Under the pieces are notes generated by a model. That model searched no databases. It saw nothing but the letters and a program-made list of their open reading frames with translations, and was not told the origin of the DNA. This document shows, piece after piece, positions 31,291-38,814 of a DNA stretch of 64,000 bases. A program made the position numbers and the translations under genes. The number at the start of each line of letters is the position of its first letter. Within the stretch, counting starts at the first letter, position 1. The DNA lies in contig NZ_VIWU01000001.1 of assembly GCF_007994075.1 (NCBI RefSeq), positions 3,038,001 to 3,102,000 of the forward strand, in the 5' to 3' direction. Origin of the DNA: Pseudonocardia hierapolitana (GTDB lineage: Bacteria; Actinomycetota; Actinomycetes; Mycobacteriales; Pseudonocardiaceae).

Positions 31291-32190
31291 CTAGTTCCCC
31301 CCGGGCAAGCCGGGGACGGCGGGGCCGGTGTCGGCCTGCGACGGGTCGGGCTCCTGGGCCGTCACCGGTACCCCGAAGTCGAAGTACTCGATGCTGACCG
31401 ACGACGTGGTCCTCCGGTTCCGCAACATCTCCTGGAGCTGCGGGTTGTCACCGAACATCTGGCTCATCTCCGGCGACGCGGCGAGGTCCGCGCCGTTCGA
31501 CTCGATGCTGACCTCCAGCCGTCGCACTCGCCCGTCCGAGTCCACGAACACCTGGCCGGGCATCGGGCCAGCGGCCTGCAGCGCCGCCTGGACCAGCCCG
31601 CCGTCGACGACGACACCGCTCGCGCCGGCGAGCCGCGGGGGGTCGATGGTGATCGCGTACTGACGCACCTGCGCACCGCGCACCTGGGTGGTTGCGACCT
31701 CGCGGACGTCGTCGGAGACCCCGCGCAGCAGATCGAGCTGCTGGCTCGGGTCGTGCTGACCGATCGGGGTGTTCACCAGCTGGGAGAAGTCGAACTTCTG
31801 CCACCTGGTCGCCCCGACGTCGCGCTGGTACAGCACGTTGTTGCGGAACACCGTCTCCTGCGGGGGCACGGGGAACTGCGCGTCCTTGGTGGTCATCCGG
31901 CCCTCGCCGATCTGGCGGGCGTAGTCGTAGGTGCCGGTGCCGCTCGCCGTCCACGACGAGTCACCCATCGGGCTTCCGGTGGTGGAATAGGTCATCTCGA
32001 CCGCGTAGCGGGACGAACCCGCGGCCCGGGTGACGTCCGGCGCCTCGCGGGCGACCTCCGCCGCCGGCTTCGCCGCGAGCGGGCCGCTCCCCGCGGGGCC
32101 GCCCCCGCCGCCGCACGCCGTGAGGAGCGCGATCCCGGCGACGCAGCCCGCGAGAACCGCCCTGTTCCTCCGCACGATGGTGATCGTCAT
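31291..32190 (-). CDS. LppX/LprG-like lipoprotein
   Basis: 299 residues. Signal peptide and lipobox LLTACG. The mature part (AGSSRYAVEMTYSTTGSPMGDSSW, GTYDYARQIGEGRM, DLLRGVSDDVREVATTQVRG) has the layout of a LolA-like half-barrel with a hydrophobic cavity, as in mycobacterial lipid-carrying lipoproteins; this is a pattern match only. It ends in a Pro/Gly-rich tail. It diverges from the trypsin-STAND gene with 162 bp between the starts. Confidence 0.75.
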   Translation of the reverse strand: MTITIVRRNRAVLAGCVAGIALLTACGGGGGPAGSGPLAAKPAAEVAREAPDVTRAAGSSRYAVEMTYSTTGSPMGDSSWTASGTGTYDYARQIGEGRMTTKDAQFPVPPQETVFRNNVLYQRDVGATRWQKFDFSQLVNTPIGQHDPSQQLDLLRGVSDDVREVATTQVRGAQVRQYAITIDPPRLAGASGVVVDGGLVQAALQAAGPMPGQVFVDSDGRVRRLEVSIESNGADLAASPEMSQMFGDNPQLQEMLRNRRTTSSVSIEYFDFGVPVTAQEPDPSQADTGPAVPGLPGGN

Positions 32191-32294
32191 CGTCCCCTCC
32201 TCGTCGAGTCGATCCGGCCGGACCGCCCCCCACCCGTCGTCGGCCCGGCCGGCACTGGGATGGACCCGCCGGGAGCAGCGGCCGTTGCCCCCGA

Positions 32295-32308
32295 GTGACG
32301 TGGATCAC
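32295..32308. promoter_or_regulatory. CRP/FNR-type inverted repeat
   Basis: GTGA-CGTGGA-TCAC, a perfect GTGA-N6-TCAC core as bound by actinobacterial CRP (TGTGA-N6-TCACA). It lies 45 bp upstream of the GTG of the trypsin-STAND gene, with a possible -10 box TACACT at 32322-32327. Confidence 0.45.
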
Positions 32309-32352
32309 TTTGATCAGCGGCTACACTCCCGGCCGGCACGATCGGGGGGTCA

Positions 32353-35300
32353 GTGACCACGACACAGCGAGACCAGGCGGTACCCGCGCGCGTCATCGTG
32401 CGTGTGCTCGACCCCGCCGGTGAGCCGGTCGGCGCGGGCTTCGTGATCGGCGAGGACCTGGTGGCCACGTGCGCCCACGTCGCGGCGGCGGCCGTGCGCG
32501 CCGACCCGTACGACGCCCAGCCTCCCTCGCAGCGGATCGCGCTCGACCTCCCCCTGCTGATCGAATCCGACGCGGACGTCCCCGCGCGGGTGTCGGCGGA
32601 GGTCGCGCGGTGGATCCCGATCGCCCCGGAAGGCACCGGCGACATCGCCGTGCTGCGCGTGCGGGACCCGCTGCCCGAGGGCGCGCGGATGCCGCCGCTG
32701 CGCCGGGTCGATCAGCTGTGGGACCACACCTTCCGGGTGCTGGGCTTCCCCGCCGGGATGGCCGACGGCGTGTGGGCCACCGGCCGGTTCCGCGGCCGGC
32801 AGGGCACGCGGTGGTTCCAGATGCAGGCCACCGCAGGCGAGCAGCCGATCGTTCCGGGCTTCAGCGGCTCGCCGGTGTGGGACGAGGAGTCGGGTGCCGT
32901 CGTCGGGATGACGGTCGCCACCGACGTCGCCGGCACGTCCACCGCCTACCTGATCCCGATCGACCTCGTGCTCGGCGTGGACCCGGAGCTCCTACCCTGC
33001 CCGTACCGCGGCCTGGAGCCGTTCGGGGAGGAGCACGCGAGCTTCTTCTTCGGCCGCGACGCCGACATCGGGCGGCTCGTCGACGCCGTCGAGCGCCAAC
33101 CGCTGGTGGCGGTCGCGGGCCCGTCCGGTGCAGGCAAGTCGTCGCTGGTGCGGGCCGGTCTGCTCCCGCGGCTGCGCGCCGATGGGGTGCAGGTCGCCGA
33201 GCTGCGGCCGATGCCGGGGCGCCCGGTCGCCGAGCTGGTCGCCGACGTGGCCGCGCTCGTCCCCGCAGGCCAGGACGGGCGCGTGGTGCTCGTCCTCGAC
33301 CAGTTCGAGGAGCTCGCCGCCACCGATCCCGACGCCGCCACGGAGCTGCTCGAGCGGATCGGCGAGCTGGTCGGAGGCGGACGCGCGCGGGCGGTGCTCA
33401 CCCTGCGCTCCGCCACGCTGGACGACATCCGGGTCCCCGAGCTCGCGAACCTCCTCGGCTCCGGCACGGTGCTGCTCCCCCCGATGGACCGTCGGCAGCT
33501 CCGGGCGGCGATCGTGGCGCCGGCCGAACGGGCACCCGGCCTGTCGTTCGAGCCCGGCCTCGTCGACCGCATCCTCGACGACGCCGCGGCGGAGCCCGGT
33601 CAGCTGCCGCTCGTGGAGTCGCTGCTCACCGAGCTGTGGGCGCGCAGGGACGGCGGGTACCTCACGCTCCGCGCGTACGAGGAGGCGGGCGGCGTGGCCG
33701 GGGTGGTCGCCACGCACGCCGAGTCCGTCGTCGCAGGCTTCGACCCTGCGGACGGGGATCGCCTGCGGCGGCTGTTCACGGCGCTGGCCGGGCCGGACCG
33801 GGACGGCCGCTTCGTCCGCAGGCCGTTGCGCTGGGGCGACGTGCCCGCCGACCTGCGCCCGCTGGTGCTGCGGCTCGCCGCAGGCCGGCTGGTGGTCGTG
33901 GAGCGGGCGGCCGACGGGCAGGAGACCATCCAGCTCGCCCACCAGGCCCTGATCGCGCACTGGCCACGGCTGCGCGACTGGCTCACCGAGGACCGCGACT
34001 TCATCGCCTGGCGCGACCAGGTCGGCCAGCAGCGCGAACGCTGGGAAGAGAGCGGGCACGACGACGGCGCGCTGCTGCGCGGCGCGGCACTCGCGACCGC
34101 GCTCGACCGGTTGCCGGCCCGGACGGCGGACGTACCGGCGCCCGATGTCGAGTTCGTGCAGCGCAGCCGGGCACGGCAGCGTCGCGAGGTGCGGCGGTGG
34201 CGGATCGTCACCGCGGTGCTGGGGGTGATCACGCTCGCCGCCGGTGCCCTCGCGGTCGTCGCGGTCGACCGCGGCAACGCGCTCGGCGAGCAGCTCGACC
34301 GGGCGAACGCCGAGCTGCTGGCCCAGACGTCGCTGTCGCGGGCACCGACGGACCCGGTCACGAGCACACAGCTGGCGCTCGCGGCGTGGCGGCTCGACCC
34401 GGGGAACGCGGCGGCCCGCACGGCCCTCCTGCGGCAGTACGTCGCGATGCGCTCCGTCGACGGTGTCATCCCCGCTGTGACCACCGAGTCGATCATCGGG
34501 TTCGGGCTGTCGGCGGACGGGCGGGTGATGGTCGTCCCCGAGAACGAGGGGCTGGTGGTCCTCACCGGGCTCCCGGACGGCCCCGTGCAGCGCCACACCC
34601 TCCCCGGCGCCCCGCCCGGACTCCTGCGTGCCTCCGTCGACCCGACCGGGCGCTACGTCGCGACGATGGACCGGACCGGGGTCGTGCGCATGTGGGACGT
34701 CGCCGGGGGCGGCGGTCCGCGGTTCGAGTCGGCGCCCCCACCCGGCACTCCGGACAGCCGTGTGTTCGGGTTCGCCGGCGACCGCCTGCTCTGGCTCGAG
34801 CCGGTGCGCGGTGGCGCCGACCTACGCATCTGGGATGTCGCTGCGGCAGCGCCGGTGGCACACGGGCTCGGGACGATCATGGAGCCCGACGTCGTCGGGA
34901 TCGTGTTGACACCCGACTTCACCCGGGCCGTGATCCGACTGGGCGACATCGAGCAGCCGGACGTCATGCGCCTCACGGTGCGGTCGCTCGCCGACGGTGC
35001 GACGCTCGGCACGCTGCCGGAGCACAGCGCGCTCCTCGCGGGCGCGGCGTCCGCCGTCCTCTGCCAGTCGCCGGCCACCGGTGCGGGCTCGGCCGCGAAC
35101 AGAGCCACCGCCGTCGTCACGGGTCCGGATCTGGCCACGCCGCAACGGCGGATCCCCGTCGACTCGTACACGTGCGCCGGCTTCCGCCGCACGGTCACGC
35201 TGGACGGCCGGCACCGCGCCGAGCGGCTCGGCGGGCCGTTGGACGTCGACTTCGTGCGCATCCGCGACCTGAGCGACGGCAGCGCATACGACGTGACCCT

Positions 35301-36486
35301 GCCACCGGACCCCATCGCCACGACGTTCGGCGGCGGCCGCGTACCAGCCGAGAAGATGCTGGTGCTGCCGGGACCGGACGGAACCCGAACGGTCCTCGCA
35401 CCGCACGGAACCTCTCTCCTGCGGCTCACCGCCCTCCCGAACCCCTACGTCGCGGCGGGTGAGCAACCCTGGCTGGGCATGAGCGACGACGGGCGCACGA
35501 TCGTCGCCACCGAGGGTCACCGGGACTACACGACGTTCGACCGCGCGGGGGGTGGACCGATCGGGCGGCTCGACGTGGCGGCGCTCGGCGGCGAGCCGAC
35601 GCTCGCTCCGACGGTGGACCACCGGCTCGCCCTGCGCACCCGTGCAGAGGACGGCTGGTCGATCGCCGAGTACGCGCTGCCCTCGCTGGAGCGGGTGCTG
35701 CGCGTGGAGTTGCCTTCGCGCACCAGCGGACCGGCATCGAGGGCGGACACCGACACGCTCCCCGACCGGATCTACTCGCTCGCGGACGGCCTGCTGACCG
35801 GGTGGGACAGGGCGACGGGTGCCCCGCTGGGGCCGCCGGTGGACCTCGCCACCACGCCGCAGCGCAGGCAATGGTTCATCGACACCTCATCCGTGCTCGA
35901 GGCCCGTCCCGGCCATCCCGGCGAGGTGGCCGTGCTGGGGCCGGACAACACGATCGAGCTGTGGGACGTCGGACGGGGCATCCAGCTCACCACCCTCCCG
36001 CAGGTCGCCGGCCGGCAGTCCTACGCGTTCGCGTTCGACGACAGCGGGTCCCGCCTCGCGAGCGCGACGAGCCATGGGGTGCTGGACGTCTGGGATCTCG
36101 ACCGCCGCGAACTGGTCGCCCCTTCCGTCCCGACCGAGGGCACGCAGGACCCCGTCGGGTTCACCGCCGATGGCATGGTGGTGACCTCCTCCCCGGGGGG
36201 TGAAAGCGGGGTACTCACGTTCTGGGACCCGGCATCCGGCCGGGCGAGCGGCTCGGTGCGGCTCACGCTCGGGGAGGACAACGAGGCCGAGGTCGTCGAC
36301 GGCACGCGGCTGGAGGTCGCGGGCGGCGACGGCTACACCGCGAAGTCGAGCGGGGCGTTGCCGATCGCGATGGCGCTCACGGCGCAGCAGTGGGCCGACG
36401 AGCTGTGCCACGTGTCCCGCCACCAGTTCACCGATGTGGAACGGGCCGCGTTGCCGTCCGGGAGCACCATCGACCCGCCCTGCTGA
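32353..36486 (+). CDS. Trypsin-like protease / nSTAND NTPase / beta-propeller multidomain protein
   Basis: 1377 residues, GTG start with a G-rich ribosome site. Residues 1-205 form a trypsin-like domain with all three catalytic residues: His42 (TCAHVA), Asp97 (GTGDIAVLRV) and Ser171 (GFSGSPVW). Residues 215-240 (CPYRGLEPFGEEHASFFFGRD) are the nSTAND1 signature. Walker A is GPSGAGKSS (256-264) and Walker B VVLVLDQFEEL (311-321). A helical region and a single membrane helix near 617-637 follow. The rest, about residues 690-1377, is repeats with VRMWDVAG, LRIWDV, IELWDVG and LDVWDLD, a WD40-type propeller. Such proteins are predicted signal-gated proteases in defence or stress response. No partner gene is obvious. 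Confidence 0.9.
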   Translation: MTTTQRDQAVPARVIVRVLDPAGEPVGAGFVIGEDLVATCAHVAAAAVRADPYDAQPPSQRIALDLPLLIESDADVPARVSAEVARWIPIAPEGTGDIAVLRVRDPLPEGARMPPLRRVDQLWDHTFRVLGFPAGMADGVWATGRFRGRQGTRWFQMQATAGEQPIVPGFSGSPVWDEESGAVVGMTVATDVAGTSTAYLIPIDLVLGVDPELLPCPYRGLEPFGEEHASFFFGRDADIGRLVDAVERQPLVAVAGPSGAGKSSLVRAGLLPRLRADGVQVAELRPMPGRPVAELVADVAALVPAGQDGRVVLVLDQFEELAATDPDAATELLERIGELVGGGRARAVLTLRSATLDDIRVPELANLLGSGTVLLPPMDRRQLRAAIVAPAERAPGLSFEPGLVDRILDDAAAEPGQLPLVESLLTELWARRDGGYLTLRAYEEAGGVAGVVATHAESVVAGFDPADGDRLRRLFTALAGPDRDGRFVRRPLRWGDVPADLRPLVLRLAAGRLVVVERAADGQETIQLAHQALIAHWPRLRDWLTEDRDFIAWRDQVGQQRERWEESGHDDGALLRGAALATALDRLPARTADVPAPDVEFVQRSRARQRREVRRWRIVTAVLGVITLAAGALAVVAVDRGNALGEQLDRANAELLAQTSLSRAPTDPVTSTQLALAAWRLDPGNAAARTALLRQYVAMRSVDGVIPAVTTESIIGFGLSADGRVMVVPENEGLVVLTGLPDGPVQRHTLPGAPPGLLRASVDPTGRYVATMDRTGVVRMWDVAGGGGPRFESAPPPGTPDSRVFGFAGDRLLWLEPVRGGADLRIWDVAAAAPVAHGLGTIMEPDVVGIVLTPDFTRAVIRLGDIEQPDVMRLTVRSLADGATLGTLPEHSALLAGAASAVLCQSPATGAGSAANRATAVVTGPDLATPQRRIPVDSYTCAGFRRTVTLDGRHRAERLGGPLDVDFVRIRDLSDGSAYDVTLPPDPIATTFGGGRVPAEKMLVLPGPDGTRTVLAPHGTSLLRLTALPNPYVAAGEQPWLGMSDDGRTIVATEGHRDYTTFDRAGGGPIGRLDVAALGGEPTLAPTVDHRLALRTRAEDGWSIAEYALPSLERVLRVELPSRTSGPASRADTDTLPDRIYSLADGLLTGWDRATGAPLGPPVDLATTPQRRQWFIDTSSVLEARPGHPGEVAVLGPDNTIELWDVGRGIQLTTLPQVAGRQSYAFAFDDSGSRLASATSHGVLDVWDLDRRELVAPSVPTEGTQDPVGFTADGMVVTSSPGGESGVLTFWDPASGRASGSVRLTLGEDNEAEVVDGTRLEVAGGDGYTAKSSGALPIAMALTAQQWADELCHVSRHQFTDVERAALPSGSTIDPPC

Positions 36487-36534
36487 GCGGGAATCCGGTC
36501 GTGTTCCGTCGGTGCCCCGGAGCACGATGGACGC

Positions 36535-37755
36535 GTGGACGTCGACGCCGCGCCCGCCCGGGGGCTCACCGCCTACCGCGCGGTCCTCGCCCTTCCCGGC
36601 GTCGGCGCCGTCACCGCCGTCTCCTTCCTGGCCCGCCTGCCCGCTTCCGCGGCGGCCATCACGCTCACGCTGCACGTGGTGCTCACCCAGGATCGGGGCT
36701 ATGCGGCCGCGGGCATGGTCGGGGCCGCGGCCACCGTCGGCATGGCGGTCGGGGCGCCGCTGCTCGGCCGGCTCGTCGACCGCCGCGGACTGCGCACGAT
36801 GCTCGGCCTGACGCTGTCCGCGCAGGCCGTGTTCTGGAGCGTCGCGCCGTTCCTCGCGTACCCGGCGCTGCTGGTGAGCGCCCTGATCGGTGGGCTGCTG
36901 GGCGTGCCGGTCTACTCGGTCACCCGGCAGTCGCTCGCCGTGCTGGTGCCACCGGAGCGCCGGAGGACCGCATTCGCGCTCGACTCGATGTCGGTCGAGG
37001 TCTCCTACATCATCGGACCGGCGATCGGTGCGCTGCTGGCGCTGCAGGTGTCGTCCGCCTCCGCGATGTGGGTGGTCGGGGCCGGGTGGCTGGTCGCGGG
37101 CGGTGCGCTCATGCTGCTGAACCCGCCCACCCACGCGGCGGGCACCTCGCGCACCGGGCCACCGCTGCCCGTCCGGCAGTGGCTCGACCTGCGCCTGCTC
37201 GGAGCCCTGCTGGCCACCACCGCGGCGGTGATCGTCGTCTTCGGCACCGAGCTGTCGATGATCGCCGGTCTCGAGCTCGGCGGGCAGGCAGGCTGGATCC
37301 CGCTCGTCAACGCGGTGTGGTGCGTGGCATCGCTCATCGGCGGGTTCGTGTACGGCGGGGCCCGGCGTTCCCTCCCCCTCCCGCTGCTCGTCGGTTGTCT
37401 CGGGGCCGCCGCGTTGCCGGTCGCGTTGGCCGGTCCGTGGTGGTCCTACGCACTGCTGCTCGTACCCGTCGGGCTGCTGATCGCGCCCTCGATGGCCGCC
37501 AGCGCCGAGACCGTCAGCACGCTGGCGCCCGAGCATGCGCGCGGGCTGGTCACCGGGCTCCACGGCTCCGCCATCACCATCGGCGCCACCGTCGCAACCC
37601 CCCTCGCCGGCCTTCTCGTCGACGTCGCCTCACCCGCCGTCGCGGTCCTCACCGTCGGGGCCGCCGGGCTGGGCGCAGCGGTGCTGGTCGGGATGCTCGT
37701 CCGCCCACGGCGGGAGGCACCCGTCACACCCTCAGCCGGTTCTCAACCGATCTAG
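36535..37755 (+). CDS. MFS transporter (12 helices)
   Basis: 406 residues, about 12 hydrophobic segments. Motif A is GRLVDRRGLRTMLG. The second half begins near RQWLDLRLLGALLATTAAV. It is like sugar-efflux/multidrug exporters of the YcaD/SET type in general shape; the substrate cannot be told. GTG start at 36535, 49 bp after the STAND gene in the same direction, and it is followed 15 bp later by the EEP gene, so the three may be co-transcribed. Confidence 0.88.
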   Translation: MDVDAAPARGLTAYRAVLALPGVGAVTAVSFLARLPASAAAITLTLHVVLTQDRGYAAAGMVGAAATVGMAVGAPLLGRLVDRRGLRTMLGLTLSAQAVFWSVAPFLAYPALLVSALIGGLLGVPVYSVTRQSLAVLVPPERRRTAFALDSMSVEVSYIIGPAIGALLALQVSSASAMWVVGAGWLVAGGALMLLNPPTHAAGTSRTGPPLPVRQWLDLRLLGALLATTAAVIVVFGTELSMIAGLELGGQAGWIPLVNAVWCVASLIGGFVYGGARRSLPLPLLVGCLGAAALPVALAGPWWSYALLLVPVGLLIAPSMAASAETVSTLAPEHARGLVTGLHGSAITIGATVATPLAGLLVDVASPAVAVLTVGAAGLGAAVLVGMLVRPRREAPVTPSAGSQPI

Positions 37756-37770
37756 GGAACACTCGGGTCG

Positions 37771-38814
37771 ATGACCGCATCGCCGGATCGGCTCGCCTCC
37801 GCCAACCCGCCGATCCCACGCGCGCGGGATGTCCGGCGCGGTCGCGGCACGGTCCGATACGTGGTCGCGGTCGTGTTCACGCTGATCGTCGCGGTGGCGA
37901 CGCTCCCGGACCTGCTGTTCGGGCTCGACCGCCGCAGCCCGTTCGTGCAGCTCGTGTCGCTGCGGCCGTGGATCCTCGGCGGGGTACTCGCCCTGCTCGT
38001 GCTGCTGCTCCTGGTGATGGTGTTCGAGCGCCGGGTGTGGCCGTTCGCCGCCGGTGTGCTGGCCGTGCTCCTGGTCGGCGGGGGGATGGTGCTGCCCCGC
38101 GTGCTGCCCGACGCCGACACCGTGCGCGGAGCCCCCTTCCGGGTGCTGGCGTTCAACACGTTCGAGGGCGAGGCCGACGCCGACCAGCTCGCCGCCCTGA
38201 TCGAGGAGCAGCAGCCGGACGCGGTCGCGATCAGCGAGTCCGGCAACAACTTCGCCGACAAGCTCACCCCTCTGGTCGAGCCACTGGGCTACCGGGTGCA
38301 CGTGTCCACCGACGACGGCGCCGACGACGACGTCGAGGAGGTCACCGCCGTCGTGTCGGACCAGCTCGGTGAGGTCGACGTCCGGGTCGGCGACGAGACC
38401 TCCGCCTTCCCCTACATCGAGGTGAGCGGTGGCGCGCTCGACACGCTCCGCTTCGTGGCGTTCCACGCGGTGGCCCCGGTGCCCGGCTCCGTGCCGGACT
38501 GGAACGAGGACCTGGCCCTGCTCTCCCGGTGGTGCGCCGGACCCACGCCTGCGGTGATCGCAGGCGACTTCAACGCCACCCTGGACCACTCCGCGCTGCG
38601 GGACGGCACCTCCGGGTGCGGGAACGCAGCAGCCCAGCGCGGCGCCGGGCTGATCCCGACCTGGGGGCCGAGCCCGAACCTGCGCCGCTTCGGTCCGCAG
38701 ATCGACCACGTGTTCGCCACGGACGGCATCACCGCCGAGACGTTCGACGTGCGCGACATCCCGGGCAGCGACCACCGCGCGATCATGACGACCTTGCGCC
38801 TCACGAACCAGTGA
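37771..38814 (+). CDS. Membrane-anchored endonuclease/exonuclease/phosphatase (EEP) family protein
   Basis: 347 residues. Three membrane helices at the N-terminus (VVAVVFTLIVAVATL, WILGGVLALLVLLLLVMVF, FAAGVLAVLLVGGGMVL). A DNase-I-like domain follows with LAFNTFEG (metal Asn/Glu region), IAGDFNATLDH (GDFN) and QIDHVFATDG plus PGSDHRAIM (the catalytic DH pair). The active site is extracytoplasmic by topology. Related proteins cleave phosphodiesters, including extracellular DNA or lipids; the substrate is unknown. The stop codon lies inside a 17-bp-stem terminator. Confidence 0.9.
   Translation: MTASPDRLASANPPIPRARDVRRGRGTVRYVVAVVFTLIVAVATLPDLLFGLDRRSPFVQLVSLRPWILGGVLALLVLLLLVMVFERRVWPFAAGVLAVLLVGGGMVLPRVLPDADTVRGAPFRVLAFNTFEGEADADQLAALIEEQQPDAVAISESGNNFADKLTPLVEPLGYRVHVSTDDGADDDVEEVTAVVSDQLGEVDVRVGDETSAFPYIEVSGGALDTLRFVAFHAVAPVPGSVPDWNEDLALLSRWCAGPTPAVIAGDFNATLDHSALRDGTSGCGNAAAQRGAGLIPTWGPSPNLRRFGPQIDHVFATDGITAETFDVRDIPGSDHRAIMTTLRLTNQ

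Follow-up and report, generated by a model that had tools for sequence, protein, structure and literature searches.

Several bacterial systems join proteases to NTPases of the STAND type. NTPases of the nSTAND1 group (PF20703) have been named as conflict-system NTPases in which the nSTAND1 module is flanked by an N-terminal effector, such as a peptidase or TIR domain, and by a C-terminal sensor (PMC8195603). In Avs1 (AVAST type 1), a trypsin-like protease is fused to a STAND NTPase and cuts a pro-nuclease of the metallo-beta-lactamase (MBL) fold encoded upstream (PMC12799240), and CARD-NLR systems such as LypABC combine a trypsin-like peptidase with an ATPase resembling those of nucleotide-binding leucine-rich repeat (NLR) receptors in regulated cell lysis (PMC13236601). 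In multicellular bacteria, the sensors of STAND proteins can be diversified by diversity-generating retroelements, with one target predicted to be periplasmic (PMC10907252). This article describes a gene at positions 32353 to 36486 of a 64,000-nucleotide stretch of the genome of the soil bacterium Pseudonocardia hierapolitana (contig NZ_VIWU01000001.1, positions 3,038,001 to 3,102,000; hereafter, the window), whose product carries a trypsin-like protease, an nSTAND1 NTPase, a membrane helix, and a double beta propeller. Judging from this sequence and those of its relatives, we consider it fairly probable that the protein is a single-pass transmembrane NLR-like receptor that turns a signal outside the cell into proteolysis inside.

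The protein shares with the nSTAND1 conflict NTPases the combination of effector, nSTAND1 module, and sensor, and the source names of two relatives (P0038 and P0102) carry the conflict-system label; however, the accessible part of that account describes neither a helix with a disulfide-bonded outside propeller, nor sensor exchange at the membrane, nor pairs of active and dead proteases (PMC8195603). Avs1 likewise has an N-terminal trypsin-like protease fused to a STAND NTPase and proteolysis as its output, which here is predicted, but the present protein differs in its membrane helix and propeller and in having no adjacent gene for an MBL-fold pro-nuclease (PMC12799240). No match to PF00753 (Lactamase_B), a profile that could miss a divergent MBL nuclease, lies within 50 kb of any of the three full-length copies of this architecture in the same genome, and the nearest is 55 kb from the end of the window gene; a partner of the Avs1 kind was therefore rejected, and the substrate is probably different from that of Avs1 or encoded at a distance. 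The CARD-NLR systems also use a trypsin-like peptidase and an NLR-like ATPase, but as separate components rather than as one fused chain (PMC13236601), and no CARD family was matched in the window protein (Pfam, E ≤ 0.1), although bacterial CARD-like folds can escape profiles. The retroelement-diversified proteins are STAND NTPases with variable sensors as well, but these sensors are C-type lectins rather than propellers, and in the periplasmic case the authors place NACHT and lectin on the same side of the membrane (PMC10907252). The literature searched, which did not cover subscription papers or preprints, held nothing that we recognized on disulfide-bonded or outside propellers in nSTAND1 proteins or on STAND pairs of an active protease and a pseudoprotease. 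Databases already list this architecture, and its general kind is known; what appears new relative to that literature is the putative outside, disulfide-bonded, exchangeable sensor together with the active/pseudoprotease pair.

Domain Architecture

The gene and its parts are as follows.

32353..36486, + strand: gene for the trypsin-like, nSTAND1, transmembrane, double-propeller protein (1377 aa, P0001)
32431..32910, + strand: HtrA-like serine protease domain, residues 27-186, with His42/Asp97/Ser171 intact
33001..34065, + strand: nSTAND1 NTPase, residues 217-571, with Walker A K262 and Walker B D316/E319/E320 (Pfam, 320.3 bits)
34204..34260, + strand: single membrane helix, residues 618-636, within a predicted continuous helix of residues 597-663
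34450..36387, + strand: double WD40-type beta propeller, residues ~700-1345, the divergent sensor part (pLDDT of the model 90.7)
35062..35175, + strand: Cys904 and Cys941, the first conserved cysteine pair, in the propeller
36406..36483, + strand: Cys1352 and Cys1377, the second conserved cysteine pair, in the C-terminal tail

The domains score above their curated Pfam cut-offs (27.1 bits for PF20703), and the predicted models are confident. Both the His/Asp/Ser triad and the fold of a trypsin-like S1 peptidase are present, the fold being of the HtrA/DegS type. Conservation was assessed in a main alignment of 116 rows, comprising the query and 115 of the best 120 listed relatives; P0006, P0007, P0057, and P0069 (lengths outside 1300-1450 aa) were left out, as was P0002, which is identical with the query. 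K262 and D316 are kept in all 116 rows and E319 and E320 in 115, and the protease triad is intact in 102 and lost in 14. The predicted model of the C-terminal part has a WD40-type propeller fold; at E ≤ 0.1 the Pfam matches lacked the PF00400 repeat and included WD40-related families only, below cut-off. A sequence search of the PDB matched 61 sequences, the best 60 of which are all propeller proteins, with PkwA (5yzv) at the top; a special closeness to the Apaf-1 propeller was rejected, the Z-score being tied with those of many WD40 proteins. PADLOC, whose library presumably includes Avs models, gave no model fitting the whole protein; its matches were confined to two RT-Protease_XI models in the protease region, the better at 25.1 bits, and weak ones to mad8 and mad3. 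Besides the three full-length copies, the genome encodes a 668-aa trypsin-nSTAND1 protein (L068 6660-8663, G000:C1 at ~3.52 Mb) whose end shows neither a propeller nor a strong membrane helix and which is either a shorter relative or a truncated copy.

Membrane Topology and Cysteine Pattern

A hydrophobic stretch of 19 residues (mean hydropathy at least 2.03) occupies the same alignment position in every row of the main alignment, and in every row the 20 residues before it carry a higher net charge than the 20 residues after it (medians +6 vs. 0). Read by eye, the N terminus shows no signal peptide. The C-terminal part of ~730 residues that follows the helix contains four conserved cysteines, arranged as two pairs, and almost no others: exactly four cysteines follow the helix in 106 of the 116 rows, and none beyond these four in 111. 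Members of a pair are nearly always kept or lost together, C904 and C941 being both present in 111 rows, both absent in four, and single in one, and C1352 and C1377 both present in 113, both absent in two, and single in one. Before the helix, over a similar length, 51 rows have cysteines besides the two common ones (C40 and C216), and the cysteine count is odd in 35 rows as against three after the helix (Fisher p 5e-9, a value that ignores the kinship of the aligned rows). When the propellers were thinned to 67 clusters of <55% identity, all four cysteines were still kept in 65. Even, paired cysteines with exclusion of others match the pattern expected of an exported, disulfide-bonded domain, and oxidative folding of exported proteins has been described in Actinobacteria (PMC9974433).

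Because the flank charge is consistent throughout and paired cysteines occur only after the helix, the propeller is placed outside the cell, where two predicted disulfides would hold it; the protease and STAND modules are placed in the cytoplasm because of the positive flank before the helix and the lack of a signal peptide visible by eye. That the protein is divided in this way is a strong inference, not proof.

The same layout extends in part to wider relatives, 40 new rows from a propeller search, of which 25 were placed by script and 15 were not placeable. In 23 of the 25 placed rows the flank before the helix is the more positive one, and in 23 the C-terminal pair forms the last two cysteines, 23-27 residues apart; exactly two cysteines follow the helix in 12. 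The C-terminal pair is also found in P0128, in which a TIR domain occupies the protease position, and in the helix-turn-helix (HTH)-bearing P0135 and P0160, and is missing from P0142; the HTH assignment comes from a precomputed Pfam match (PF01381) for P0135 and from the source's name only for P0142 and P0160. From these domain combinations (P0128, P0135, P0160, and P0142), the effector is apparently exchangeable too, with TIR or HTH joined to nSTAND1, helix, and propeller, and outside propellers may be a feature of the wider class. Tandem genes for nSTAND1-helix-propeller proteins with the C-terminal cysteine pair and no trypsin domain occur at L054 7148-14836 (G045).

The original prediction, drawn up from the letters of the window alone, had described the triad, the nSTAND1 module, Walker A and B, one membrane helix, and a propeller tail, all of which are confirmed by Pfam, the models, and the main alignment. 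Its view that this STAND protein combines a protease as effector with a propeller as sensor is supported, and the flank charge and cysteine pairing uphold its idea that the membrane separates the NTPase from the propeller. It had called the membrane helix unusual, which needs correction, as the helix is constant in the family and present in most placed wider relatives, including those bearing TIR and HTH domains.

Divergence and Exchange of the Sensor

Mean pairwise identity, taken over 800 random pairs, is 60% for the trypsin domain, 61% for STAND, 58% for the membrane helix, and 52% for the helical part, compared with 29-32% for the propeller segments and 47% for the tail, the step being located just after the membrane helix. 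Compared block by block (50 residues each), P0016 and P0004 are 74-98% identical as far as residue 650 and 22-46% identical over residues 701-1350; over these latter residues P0016 and P0019 are 51-81% identical, and the N-terminal half of P0019 is closest to P0022 (76%). Four relatives from four sources (P0008-P0011) share 83-85% identity with the query over residues 213-700 and 47% over residues 640-1377. For 55 of 119 rows, the N-terminal half and the propeller point to different nearest relatives, and in 18 the row closest by N-terminal half ranks below fifth by propeller. At the syntenic locus of the window in another genome of the genus (G030), the propeller of the resident copy is likewise much more diverged than its N-terminal half. 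In some relatives, propeller modules thus look to have been exchanged or replaced just after the helix. Against exchange, P0016 and P0019 lie on short metagenome contigs, which may be chimeric assemblies, and the step in P0008-P0011 could also come from fast divergence alone. Compared with P0003/P0004, the proteins P0016, P0019, and P0008-P0011 are up to 91% identical in the N-terminal half and 33-47% in the propeller.

Tandem Pairs of Active and Dead Proteases

Relationships among triad-bearing and dead-triad members were examined in a tree of 145 rows, from 152 of which seven were omitted (two without trypsin, three frame-broken or truncated, and P0125 and P0128); this is a quick tree with long-branch warnings, in which four label changes are needed. 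A single group, with a Shimodaira-Hasegawa-like approximate likelihood ratio (SH-aLRT) support of 98, unites 16 dead-triad rows (two of which duplicate other members); it sits beside a group of 21 active rows (SH-aLRT 94) within a clade of 37 rows (SH-aLRT 100). Triad loss in P0118 is separate from this group, and P0124 and L074 are labeled dead as well but are without a full trypsin domain.

Pairs with an active gene upstream and a dead gene downstream were seen directly at three loci, L050 (G049), L058 (G022), and L060 (G012), and at a fourth, the frame-broken L063 (G030), the Ser motif alone indicates the same arrangement. For seven further dead rows there is an active sister on a contig of equal length; their adjacency, although not seen, is likely. 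No active partner was identified for the dead rows P0105, P0110, P0120, and P0121. When ten pairs, of which three were seen and seven inferred, are compared, the identity matrix of the active members correlates with that of the dead ones at 0.93-0.99 (Mantel, 0 of 5000): the two genes of a pair are inherited together. Active and dead members of one pair resemble each other at 44-56% in the protease and at 59-69% in the STAND module. Protease identity is 0.60 among dead members vs. 0.69 among active ones, and that of STAND is equal (0.70). These figures suggest relaxed catalysis and a switch that was kept; K262 is retained in the dead-triad rows of the main alignment also. Two-gene loci with both triads intact exist as well (L048, with two full-length genes; L052, with a truncated downstream gene). 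The window protein is solitary and belongs to a branch other than that of the active/dead pairs.

Distribution and Genomic Context

At a threshold of E ≤ 1e-60, the family occurs in 12 of 62 genomes of the genus, that of P. hierapolitana included, and some carriers have several copies; the distribution is sporadic. The surroundings of the window gene form a syntenic backbone, of which the following parts matter here.

31291..32190, - strand: SCO4651-family lipoprotein gene, neighbor, syntenic backbone
32316..36459, + strand: stretch present in the window and replaced by 31 bp in G022 (from a blastn comparison of the empty site with the window)
36535..37755, + strand: major facilitator superfamily (MFS) transporter gene, neighbor, syntenic backbone
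37771..38814, + strand: endonuclease/exonuclease/phosphatase (EEP) family gene, neighbor, syntenic backbone

The order LacI-lipoprotein-MFS-EEP is common to the window and to genomes G048, G030, G049, and G022. In the window, G048, and G030 the gene sits between lipoprotein and MFS; the G030 copy (L062 7545-11636) is broken into several frames through either a draft-assembly effect or decay. G049 instead has two tandem relatives between LacI and lipoprotein, and the empty site of G022 matches window positions 31964-32315 (86%) and 36460-36780 (81%), with 31 bp in place of ~4.1 kb. Thirty-one genomes have an EEP match, of which nine were picked by identity, the carriers P. hierapolitana and G030 not being among them; MFS adjoins EEP in eight of these nine loci, and the gene was not found in any of them, G022 included, within the stretches examined (one only 4.5 kb). 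Because of the G022 empty site and the MFS-EEP synteny without the gene, the difference amounts to a one-gene insertion or precise loss at this locus, and the lipoprotein, MFS, and EEP neighbors of the gene are not partners; the hypothesis that MFS and EEP are, part of the original prediction, was rejected on these grounds.

Neighbors were also clustered across 26 loci (25 loci and the window; 312 open reading frames (ORFs), chosen by a GC-position rule). Apart from three clusters of three loci each, no recurrent partner family was seen among these ORFs: the larger clusters consisted of the syntenic block and of generic ATP-binding cassette (ABC) and LacI genes, and one more was made up of frame-broken pieces of the gene itself. 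Members of the MFS and EEP clusters are found in none of 22 of the 25 loci with relatives, and the other three represent this same locus. PADLOC, applied to 10 neighbors of the own-genome paralogues and tandem pairs, found only generic kinase, PASTA, HTH, and ABC resemblances. The original prediction thus holds in part: its protease-STAND-propeller sensor and its opposite membrane sides stand, and the housekeeping distribution in all relatives that it named as telling against it is not what was found, whereas its partner genes and its unusual helix do not stand.

Proposed Mechanism and Alternative Explanations

To our knowledge, described NLRs and bacterial STAND defense proteins all sense inside the cell. 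If the propeller is outside, a single polypeptide would join outside sensing, a STAND switch, and a protease, uniting in one chain the working principles of Toll-like and NOD-like receptors. A signal would bind the fast-evolving propeller outside the cell, bound receptors would cluster in the membrane via the continuous helix, the clustered STAND modules would exchange nucleotide and assemble, and assembly would switch on the protease or concentrate it against a cytoplasmic substrate. Apaf-1 propellers hold their NTPase shut by direct contact. A propeller across the membrane could make no such contact, and activation would therefore have to differ from that of Apaf-1, with clustering through the continuous helix the likelier trigger. 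The biological role is most likely conflict with invaders or competitors, exerted by a stand-alone gene; defense seems likelier than regulation because of the patchy occurrence, the multiple copies, the divergence of the sensor, and the pairing. A bolder version, which we regard as tentative and somewhat less than probable, is that these are true transmembrane immune receptors, in which an exchangeable disulfide-bonded propeller would detect, ahead of entry, phage particles, competitors, or damage to the envelope and the response inside would come from a protease driven by STAND, with one branch using an active receptor and a dead co-receptor as a tandem pair comparable to the paired NLRs of plants. 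The split between a conserved inside and a variable outside, together with the active/dead pairs, would make receptor diversification and co-receptor logic directly testable in bacteria.

Regulation is a serious rival to defense, even if we think it unlikely. The protein could be a membrane-anchored regulatory or stress protease whose propeller senses an envelope, nutrient, or developmental signal and whose protease cuts a regulator in the manner of DegS or RsgI, with no defense role; the HtrA/DegS-type fold, the replacement of the protease by HTH in wider relatives, and the absence of a defense island or recurrent defense partner among the neighbor ORFs favor this. It accounts less well for the sporadic, multicopy distribution, the diverging sensor with its exchange-like cases, the tandem active/dead pairs, and the TIR domain at the protease position in P0128, and a conflict receptor therefore fits better than a conserved regulator. 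That the helix is only an anchor, with the propeller folding back inside to sense phage parts as in a cytoplasmic membrane-tethered NLR, is improbable: the STAND defense proteins known to have been tested sense cytosolic ligands and WD40 propellers are usually cytosolic, but the single strong helix with its constantly more positive N-terminal flank speaks against it, as does the finding that two cysteine pairs, with other cysteines almost excluded, occur only in the part that follows the helix. That MFS and EEP work together with the STAND protein as a multi-gene system is very improbable and already contradicted. The short gaps in the window (48 bp and 15 bp) and the shared gene order in G048 and G030 are set against MFS and EEP standing together without the gene, the different position of the G049 relatives within the block, the G022 empty site, and the loci of relatives that lack both clusters.

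Several observations weigh against a transmembrane receptor driving proteolysis. The four rows without C904 and C941 lie in one clade, and their joint loss is probably one event. Among the placed wider relatives the cysteine pattern is weaker, with an odd count after the helix in six of 25, and other nSTAND1 loci have a single cysteine there (L022, L024, L035, L036, and L038) or, in some cases, none. The predicted structures come from AlphaFold, which models no membrane. The 14 rows that lost the triad imply that cutting is not always needed, and the locus is no recognizable defense island, its neighbors being sugar ABC, LacI, lipoprotein, MFS, and EEP genes (ABC ATPase and LacI assigned by reading the sequence). 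In the literature searched we found neither an experiment on the window protein or a close relative nor a direct precedent for a clustering signal passed via one helix to a STAND module.

Other Observations at Related Loci

In other members of the genus, catalase-like genes precede MFS (L106 7861-9816, L107 7709-9373, and L109 7306-8784), with a Fur-like gene also in the L106 interval; the stretch from LacI to MFS is therefore variable, these functions having been read from the sequence. A small gene family recurs near three relatives (L061 12366-13127, L072 5506-6237, and L073 10788-11453), and the relatives at L061 and L072 form one long-branched group.

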